A stretch of DNA of 64,000 nt. Origin: an uncultured Eubacteriales bacterium. GTDB taxonomy: Bacteria; Bacillota; Clostridia; Oscillospirales; Oscillospiraceae. Positions 8,164 through 9,372 of this stretch are shown here, piece by piece (the first letter of the stretch is position 1; each line of letters starts with the position of its first letter). The DNA is taken from NCBI GenBank assembly GCA_900079765.1, contig LT599017.1, forward strand, positions 620,001 through 684,000, written 5' to 3'. The position numbers and the translations under genes are program-made. Under the pieces are notes generated by a model, which worked only from the letters and a program-made list of their open reading frames with translations, had not been told where the DNA came from and searched no databases.

Positions 8164-9372
8164 ATGGAATTGACACACTTATCACTTTTTAGCGGCATCG
8201 GCGGCCTTGACATTGCCGCCGAGATGGCGGGATTTGAGACCGTCGGTCAATGCGAGTGGGCGGACTACCCCACAAAAGTGCTGGAAAAGCACTGGCCCGG
8301 GCTGCCACGATGGCGGGACATCCGCACACTGACAGGAGAGAGCTTTTATGAGCGAACAGGTTTACGAACAGTTGACGTTATTTCCGGAGGGTTCCCCTGC
8401 CAGCCGTTTTCTCTCGCCGGGCAGCGAAGAGGCACGGAGGATGACCGCTACCTCTGGCCAGAAATGCTCCGAGTTGTGTCGGAACTCCGGCCCACTTGGG
8501 TTATTGGTGAGAATGTTGCTGGGCTCGTCTCAATGGTCCAGCCCGGCGCGGCTGCTAGAGTGGAAAGCCGAATCATTAACCGCCAGCCGGACGAGGACTT
8601 TTATGAGGCGGTACTATCACGACAAGAGGACTTCTTGCTCTTCAACCTCATTGGAGGCCTTGAGCGAATCGGTTACGAGGTCCAACCGCTTATTATTCCG
8701 GCTTGTGCCGTTGGAGCCGCCCATCGTAGAGATAGGCTCGCACTTGTGGCCCACAATACGCGCTCACGAAGTAGGGGATTATCAGTACAGCCAAGGAGAT
8801 CACAGCAAGCCGACACCGACGCTCAGCGGAGCGGTGAAAATGTGGCCGACACCAAAGGCAAGCGATGCAATCATGGGTATGACGGCCAGGACCAGCGGAA
8901 GGCCGTTGGAGAAGTCAACGCATTTGCAGGCACAAGTATATGTGGCGGAGATGTTCCCAACACCGACGGCAATGGACAGCAATCCCACTCTTGCCACAAA
9001 ACTTCGGAAAGACGCATCACCGACCAGATCAATTCTGTTGTCGCAAAAGGTAGCGATGTTTGCAACCCCACAGGCTCTGGACTTTCGGACGGGACAGACC
9101 AGCCGCTGGGAGGACGAGAACCGAAGCCGCAACCTCAACGACCAGATGGGCGGCCAGCTCAACCCGGCCTGGGTGGAGTGGCTGATGGGATTCCCGCCTG
9201 GATGGACCGATATTGGTTAGAAGAGCCTGATATCCCACGGGTAGCATCCGGAGTGCCTGACCGGGTGGACAAGCTCAAAGCCCTGGGAAACGCCGTGTAC
9301 TGGCGGCAATTTTACCCCATATTCGCGGGGATTTATGACATTGAGATAGGAGGCCACCATGGAAAACGATAG
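8164..9372 (+). CDS. dcm: C5 cytosine DNA methyltransferase
   Basis: A 402-residue protein with the m5C motifs in order: I (LFSGIGGLDIA), IV (GGFPCQPFS, catalytic Cys79), VI (GENV), VIII (RRDRLALV) and X (KALGNAV) near the end. Such phage enzymes modify DNA against host restriction. The target-recognition part, from about residue 200 to 340, is low in hydrophobic residues and carries repeated VA(D/H)T-like units. The same DNA encodes another protein in the +1 frame there. AGGAGG lies 7 bases upstream of ATG. Confidence 0.92.
   Translation: MELTHLSLFSGIGGLDIAAEMAGFETVGQCEWADYPTKVLEKHWPGLPRWRDIRTLTGESFYERTGLRTVDVISGGFPCQPFSLAGQRRGTEDDRYLWPEMLRVVSELRPTWVIGENVAGLVSMVQPGAAARVESRIINRQPDEDFYEAVLSRQEDFLLFNLIGGLERIGYEVQPLIIPACAVGAAHRRDRLALVAHNTRSRSRGLSVQPRRSQQADTDAQRSGENVADTKGKRCNHGYDGQDQRKAVGEVNAFAGTSICGGDVPNTDGNGQQSHSCHKTSERRITDQINSVVAKGSDVCNPTGSGLSDGTDQPLGGREPKPQPQRPDGRPAQPGLGGVADGIPAWMDRYWLEEPDIPRVASGVPDRVDKLKALGNAVYWRQFYPIFAGIYDIEIGGHHGKR
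8348..9220 (+). CDS. 290-residue protein encoded entirely inside dcm in the +1 frame
   Basis: ATG at 8348 is preceded by GGAGAG at good spacing. The frame stays open for 290 codons within dcm. The product has protein-like order: EQLTLFPEGSPASRF at the start, a basic middle, four units of the type (L/M)(W/F)PTPxA at 8744, 8840, 8951 and 9056, and an end NPAWVEWLMGFPPGWTD. I recall similar sequences in other phage dcm loci, so overprinting is likely; no function is known to me. The repeated units correspond in the dcm frame to its VADT-like repeats. Confidence 0.65.
   Translation: MSEQVYEQLTLFPEGSPASRFLSPGSEEARRMTATSGQKCSELCRNSGPLGLLVRMLLGSSQWSSPARLLEWKAESLTASRTRTFMRRYYHDKRTSCSSTSLEALSESVTRSNRLLFRLVPLEPPIVEIGSHLWPTIRAHEVGDYQYSQGDHSKPTPTLSGAVKMWPTPKASDAIMGMTARTSGRPLEKSTHLQAQVYVAEMFPTPTAMDSNPTLATKLRKDASPTRSILLSQKVAMFATPQALDFRTGQTSRWEDENRSRNLNDQMGGQLNPAWVEWLMGFPPGWTDIG

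Follow-up and report, generated by a model that had tools for sequence, protein, structure and literature searches.

A gene nested in the +1 frame of a putative prophage dcm gene as a candidate small subunit of a two-chain C5-cytosine DNA methyltransferase

The dcm locus and its nested reading frame

Within the window (the whole 64,000-nucleotide stretch of DNA that was analysed), a gene for a C5-cytosine DNA methyltransferase, dcm (here called alpha), encloses a second, inner gene (beta) that begins with its own ATG and lies wholly within the alpha ORF. The features of the locus, in the order of their first positions, are:

8164-9372, plus strand: alpha (dcm), the C5-cytosine methyltransferase catalytic chain, 402 amino acids, with motifs I-VIII and X (PF00145, phrog_363)
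8179-8217, plus strand: alpha motif I (LSLFSGIGGLDIA)
8334-8340, plus strand: Shine-Dalgarno-like AGGAGAG of the inner gene, 7 nt 5' of the beta ATG
8348-9220, plus strand: beta, the inner gene, 290 amino acids, in the +1 frame of alpha (phrog_1008 family)
8348-8731, plus strand: N-terminal part of beta, overprinted on alpha motifs IV-VIII
8386-8412, plus strand: alpha motif IV with the catalytic cysteine (GGFPCQPFS), aligned to GFPCQ of M.HhaI
8722-8751, plus strand: alpha motif VIII (HRRDRLALVA)
8744-8839, plus strand: beta cassette 1 (LWPTIRA...SGAVK)
8840-8950, plus strand: beta cassette 2 (MWPTPKA...)
8951-9055, plus strand: beta cassette 3 (MFPTPTA...)
9056-9151, plus strand: beta cassette 4 (MFATPQA...)
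9155-9214, plus strand: beta motif IX (QLNPAWVEWLMGFPPGWTDI), read in the inner frame
9262-9303, plus strand: alpha motif X (RVDKLKALGNAVYW)

The alpha protein matches PF00145 (E = 1.3e-35) and phrog_363 (E = 7.2e-72); the segments at 8179-8217, 8386-8412 and 8722-8751 are those that we take to be motifs I, IV and VIII. The beta protein matches the phrog_1008 profile over amino acids 106-289 (E = 4.6e-34), with no match to an NCBIfam family and none to Pfam above the cut-off. A sequence-only reading of this DNA had proposed that a gene equipped with a start and a ribosome-binding site of its own lies within dcm, and the ATG at 8348, the AGGAGAG at 8334-8340 and the ORF extending to 9220 bear this out.

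Ten neighbouring ORFs were scanned. They encode an Erf-like annealing protein, NinB/Orf, SSB and RusA upstream and a terminase and portal protein downstream, with four lacking a named function; on the basis of these phage-type neighbours we take the alpha/beta pair to be prophage-borne, in a genome of 3.67 Mb. No restriction enzyme was seen among the ORFs scanned. In PADLOC, alpha matched methylase models among the 25 of 55 matches listed, and beta and three neighbouring ORFs matched nothing. The host genome also contains an ordinary single-chain C5 methyltransferase, with motifs IX and X in one frame (G000:C1:1219679-1220779, locus L184); a scan of viral contigs with that enzyme found nothing.

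The +1 frame of dcm is open for a run of 295 codons. When synonymous codons of dcm were permuted, keeping both the protein and its codon usage, the longest +1 run averaged 118 codons, and a fraction of 0.0002 of 20,000 permutations attained 295; with uniform synonymous codons, none of 5,000 trials did so. Across the whole dcm ORF the +1 frame contains 5 stops versus a permutation mean of 10 (1.2% of permutations attain 5).

Relatives were collected through the dcm protein alone (the best 80 of 488 viral and the best 80 of 122 bacterial candidates) and through the inner protein (the best 80 of 591 viral loci). The three sets overlap, and comprise 199 distinct placed loci once near-duplicates are removed. 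Among the loci found through dcm alone, all 80 viral ones and 78 of the 79 bacterial ones that could be placed have a +1 frame that stays open for 300 nt or more past the PCQ codon, with 5 of the 159 runs stopping at a contig end and 129 of 130 distinct loci passing; the +2 frame is open to that extent in none of those 159. Stop codons, whose accumulation in the inner frame of homologues the sequence-only reading had named as evidence against a gene, have not piled up there, the frame being open in 158 of 159. Of 17 control C5 ORFs with motif X in frame (2 of them counted twice in overlapping loci, and 4 of an original 21 having been dropped for lack of an in-frame X), none had a +1 run reaching 300 nt; motif IX was in frame in 11 of the 17. 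Fourteen named phages chosen through the inner protein all displayed a +1 run, of 192-379 codons versus 43-145 in the +2 frame, with the motif IX pattern present in 8 and motif X in 12.

The start of the inner gene is conserved as well. Among 131 non-redundant relatives, 105 have an ATG at the beta start site, and 88 of those 105 also have a Shine-Dalgarno-like 4-mer. Of the 131 loci, 95 use TAT and 1 uses TAC for the tyrosine codon that overlies the beta ATG, versus 111 TAT and 297 TAC for the remaining tyrosine codons in the alpha/beta overlap.

Selection along the overlap and the cassette region

In this +1 overlap, position 3 of an alpha codon is position 2 of a beta codon, and alpha position 1 is the beta wobble position. 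Substitution rates at alpha positions 1, 2 and 3 were determined for 51 pairs of distinct relatives. No locus entered more than one pair, and the ungapped DNA matches were 65-95% identical and took in 60 nt or more of the stretch between motifs VIII and IX. The rates were 0.12/0.08/0.47 before the beta start, 0.17/0.08/0.25 in the catalytic overlap, 0.41/0.13/0.10 in the VIII-to-IX stretch, and 0.20/0.08/0.25 from motif IX onward. Between VIII and IX, all 51 pairs had a higher rate at the beta wobble position than at alpha position 3 (P = 9e-16), as did 57 of 57 with 30 nt as the minimum, and 65 of 65 in a set where some loci are present twice under two ids; pooled, non-independent pairs agree. 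The window compared with 174 relatives gave 0.42/0.12/0.16 for the same region, and compared with its near relative L087 alone, over 39 nt, too few to be informative, 4 versus 5 changes. The mean third-base entropy at conserved fourfold alpha sites, computed on the 131 loci kept of 159, was 1.78 bits for 21 sites before beta versus 1.14 bits for 30 sites inside it.

The concentration of substitutions at the inner wobble position between VIII and IX indicates that the DNA there is selected as the inner protein. Along the DNA, the selected frame is alpha, then both, then in effect beta, and then both again; two genes overlap here over a long distance on one strand, and the passage of selection from one frame to another along their length is measurable.

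The same region of the window contains a repeated DNA unit. Four (L/M)(W/F)PTPxA units had been claimed for the inner protein; two are exact (MWPTPKA at 8840-8860 and MFPTPTA at 8951-8971), and the other two are only degenerate (LWPTIRA at 8744-8764 and MFATPQA at 9056-9076). A 28-nt repeat is present in three copies that start at 8839, 8950 and 9055 (68% and 71% identity to the reference copy) and, as had been recognised, is read in both frames, giving WPTP-type units in the inner protein and VADT, VPNT and VCNP in the dcm frame. The further suggestion that this repeat has shaped both proteins is rejected on the pattern of substitutions between VIII and IX, which is that of the inner frame in all 51 distinct pairs; because the substitutions follow the inner frame, VADT looks like a by-product of WPTP. 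By the same pattern, the target-recognition region, previously assigned to the dcm frame, is more likely to reside in the inner protein.

The beta protein of the window contains four cassettes of 32-37 residues, each headed by (L/M)(W/F)PTPxA. Splitting 159 beta proteins at their WPTPxA headers produced 377 cassettes (median 39 amino acids, quartiles 32 and 44) that form 46 single-linkage clusters, the largest with 102 members. Among 1,113 matched cassette pairs, 188 are in different slots counted from both ends and 925 are in the same slot counted from one end. At least one cassette is shared by 974 protein pairs, and in 793 of these the two proteins do not have every cassette in common. The cassettes are common to relatives but reshuffled, and make the VIII-to-IX stretch a set of exchangeable units some 40 residues long, as in the multispecific phage methyltransferases; the shuffled combinations form a natural set from which target specificity might be read. 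The beta protein of one relative, L007, is 36% identical to that of the window over a 344-column alignment. The two share a GDYQYSxGDH...PTPTLSGAVKM stretch and also have ATPQxxDFRxGQxSRW in common, in a different order, with a cassette resembling window cassette 4 coming directly after the cassette-1 type in L007. In two other relatives (L143 and L147), the beta variable region contains a second, degenerate motif IX-like stretch (TNPxLLEWLMGY) in the +1 frame upstream of motif IX.

Motif distribution and a proposed two-chain enzyme

The sequence at 9155-9214, which is the position of motif IX ahead of motif X in a normal enzyme, reads QLNPAWVEWLMGFPPGWTDI in the inner frame. A phage enzyme from the control set has RNLTPVECERLMGLPEGW at the motif IX position, and in the motif IX comparison with the small chain the phage enzyme L295 has LTPVECERLMGLPEGW versus LNPAWVEWLMGFPPGW. 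A profile made from nine canonical motif IX peptides scored highest in beta at residues 269-286 (13.3), and its best score in dcm was 4.3; 14 of the 73,140 six-frame windows in the 64 kb, the beta element included, score at least 13.3, and the evidence for motif IX is therefore modest for one protein. The MGxP element was the best-scoring window in 147 of 158 beta proteins, and the median beta score was attained by 10 of 148 alpha relatives. An hhalign comparison pairs the same beta residues with motif IX (E = 0.021, probability 2.3%).

The frames of motifs IX and X were then tabulated across the relatives, using a motif IX pattern that was composed after the element had been seen. The 80 viral loci found through dcm comprised 52 with IX in the +1 frame and X in alpha, 1 with both in +1, 12 with both shifted one step and 15 with no pair; the 80 bacterial loci comprised 54, 1, 5 and 19, respectively, with 1 unplaced. 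For the 80 viral loci found through the inner protein, the corresponding numbers were 69, 3, 1 and 4, with 3 unplaced. None of the 240 loci had both motifs in the dcm frame. The 199 distinct loci comprise 144 with IX in +1 and X in alpha, 4 with both in +1, 17 with both shifted, 34 with no clear pair and none with both in alpha.

The alpha chain terminates shortly past motif VIII in four relatives (L007, L008, L044 and L253), and 25, 12, 4 and 10 alpha-frame stops, respectively, precede the end of beta. The beta frame is open in each, with IX ahead of X in one ORF; given the alpha stops, the variable region in these loci can only be beta.

A further group of relatives contains simple repeat tracts, defined as a dinucleotide of at least 5 copies or a homopolymer of at least 7 between motifs VIII and X. 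From the 199 distinct placed loci, 4 whose beta also contains X and 22 whose state could not be resolved were set aside. The 38 distinct loci that have a tract and a resolvable state divide equally, with motif X in register in 19 and shifted in the other 19, compared with 133 in register and 2 shifted among the distinct loci without a tract (Fisher P = 6e-13); the state rests on X alone in 12 loci. In the shifted loci, the stretch between VIII and IX contains AG/AC dinucleotide or poly-G tracts, and X is displaced by one frame step, as is IX wherever it was found. Their tracts are located as follows:

Some 490-525 nt downstream of the PCQ codon: L143-L148, L151-L153, L155, L157, L162, L163, L165, L166, L252 and L256
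363 nt (L262) and 751 nt (L074) 3' of the PCQ codon

No such tract was seen in the window copy, which has cassettes. The tract loci look like cases of phase variation in which both overlapping subunits would be re-framed at once, and such relatives would offer an unusual switch.

The AlphaFold2 model of beta alone had a pLDDT of 60.7, with its best long stretch, at amino acids ~45-125, forming a helix and four strands at fair confidence (block pLDDT 63-81). A fold search with this model returned no match, nor did searches of PDB sequences with beta as a single sequence and as a profile. In a model of a chimera joining alpha motifs I-VIII to the beta variable region and motif IX, the alpha domain was modelled and residues 1-206 matched C5 methyltransferases (VIA Z scores of 17.2 to 3g7u, over 166 residues at 3.2 Å, and 16.5 to 2uyc). 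The fold matches cover mainly residues 1-220, with a few VIA rows extending to 307 or 340. The pLDDT of the beta part was mostly below 50, with values of 68-71 in the motif IX region, and since that part is of low confidence we infer, rather than observe, the docking of beta on alpha.

Taken together, the sequence features make it highly likely, in our view, that the inner gene encodes the small subunit (beta) of a two-chain C5-cytosine DNA methyltransferase, with dcm as its large subunit (alpha). Beta is probably the subunit responsible for target recognition and motif IX, in a variant of the M.EcoHK31I kind of enzyme. It starts inside alpha at its own Shine-Dalgarno site and ATG, crosses the catalytic motifs in the +1 frame, holds the variable VIII-to-IX region in the form of consecutive cassettes, and ends with the motif IX-like element. 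Beta would dock on alpha, read the DNA target through its cassettes and complete the fold with its motif IX, so that neither chain would be expected to methylate alone. The presence of several cassettes may correspond to several targets per enzyme, and the pair, in its prophage, would probably shield phage DNA from host restriction. The sequence-only reading had left it between an inner product that acts with, against or independently of the methyltransferase; we favour the first, because the inner protein carries a motif IX that was not found in the dcm frame. For the family as a whole, we lean slightly towards a widespread phage enzyme in which a cassette-built specificity subunit is nested in the frame of its own catalytic subunit, with a single piece of DNA determining both chains, and in which, in part of the family, slippage of one repeat re-frames both chains as a double phase switch.

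It is improbable, although less so than the alternatives that follow, that beta is instead an overprinted protein with an independent or antagonistic job (such as a methyltransferase inhibitor or an anti-restriction protein). Much of beta does overlie the alpha catalytic motifs, and its low-confidence model lacks a fold match, but this account is at odds with the presence in beta of motif IX, which lies beside X in the alpha frame in no placed locus, and with selection of the variable region, the expected seat of specificity, as beta. Moreover, beta also holds motif X in L007, L008, L044 and L253, indicating that it is the missing half of the enzyme. We give considerably less credence to a single fused product that would arise if ribosomes moved, by programmed frameshifting, from the alpha frame to that of beta past motif VIII. 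Such a fusion would display the canonical order of motifs I-VIII, variable region and IX, and the chimera read in that way retains an intact alpha domain; however, beta has its own conserved ATG and Shine-Dalgarno-like site far upstream of VIII as well as a conserved N-terminal part, none of which a frameshift product would need, and the fused product would still be without motif X. Least credible of all is an untranslated inner frame that is an accident of alpha codon usage: while a conserved protein with biased codons can yield long +1 runs (the permutation mean being already 118 codons), chance is rejected by the permutation test, the open +1 frame of the relatives, its absence from the 17 in-frame controls, the TAT/TAC bias over the beta start, the beta-type substitutions in all 51 pairs and the four loci where beta is open while the alpha frame holds many stops. 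The inner ORF is a genuine gene.

Comparison with annotated and previously described methyltransferases

The preferred reading, a two-chain enzyme, bears on how such loci are annotated. PHROG 1008 and 363, which match beta and alpha, are both labelled DNA methyltransferase, a label that is silent on whether they are halves of one enzyme; two family labels would become a testable two-chain enzyme. Records for 3 of the 14 named phages (Bloom, K1ind3 and PhiXhv-5) annotate both ORFs and those for the other 11 annotate alpha only, such that annotation often keeps only the catalytic chain of the overlapping pair. The nested ORF is worth keeping in annotation, and a dcm gene cloned without its inner frame may yield a dead enzyme. 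In Paenibacillus phage Bloom (L001), beta is annotated at 1995-2699 as a second 'DNA cytosine methyltransferase', and in Escherichia phage K1ind3 (L316) it is annotated at 1632-2429 as 'Mte8-like protein'. A study of K1 phages lists an Mte8-like gene among those divergent between them (PMC5582158).

Both ORFs are annotated in some records (for example those of Paenibacillus phages), and the titles, abstract openings and passages of the literature searched do not join them as one enzyme. In these, which came mostly from outside subscription journals and dealt with the overlap, M.EcoHK31I, and phase-variable phage and multispecific methyltransferases, a nested phrog_1008 gene is nowhere described as a subunit, and the nested pair is absent from passages on GeneTack, P. 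larvae phages, Salmophages and virus overlaps. A table in the P. larvae phage paper contains two DNA-cytosine methyltransferase rows.

In M.EcoHK31I (YGGCCR), the gene for the small subunit is nested in an alternative frame of the large one, as it is in M.EaeI; the small-chain gene of the window likewise lies in another frame within the large one. According to a published description of M.EcoHK31I, its larger polypeptide contains motifs I-VIII, X and the predicted recognition domain and its smaller one only motif IX, whereas the larger subunit of M.AquI contains motifs I-VIII and part of the variable region and the smaller one the rest of that region and motifs IX-X (PMC3404938). The window pair resembles the two-polypeptide M.EcoHK31I in layout, in that its large chain holds motifs I-VIII and X without IX and its small chain carries motif IX (for which the single-sequence statistics are weak). 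It differs in the placement of the recognition domain, which is predicted in the larger subunit of M.EcoHK31I, as described there; in the window it is the smaller chain's frame that is under selection between VIII and IX, and since this region evolves as beta in 51 of 51 pairs, we regard the pair as a variant and not a strict member of the M.EcoHK31I type.

The split enzyme M.AquI (CYCGRG), as described in the same paper, is matched more closely by L007, L008, L044 and L253, in which alpha ends after motif VIII and beta has both IX and X. It is unlike the window, where motif X stays in alpha (9262-9303) and beta is nested within alpha; a motif X in the small chain is found in only 4 of the 199 distinct relatives.

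The multispecific methyltransferases of Bacillus phages (SPR, phi3T and H2) are single chains in which a row of exchangeable recognition units, each about 40 residues long, separates motif VIII from motif IX. The window pair is like them in its row of exchangeable units, and differs in that those units are in a second chain, encoded in the other frame. Titles on these multispecific enzymes appear in the reference list of PMC8936443.
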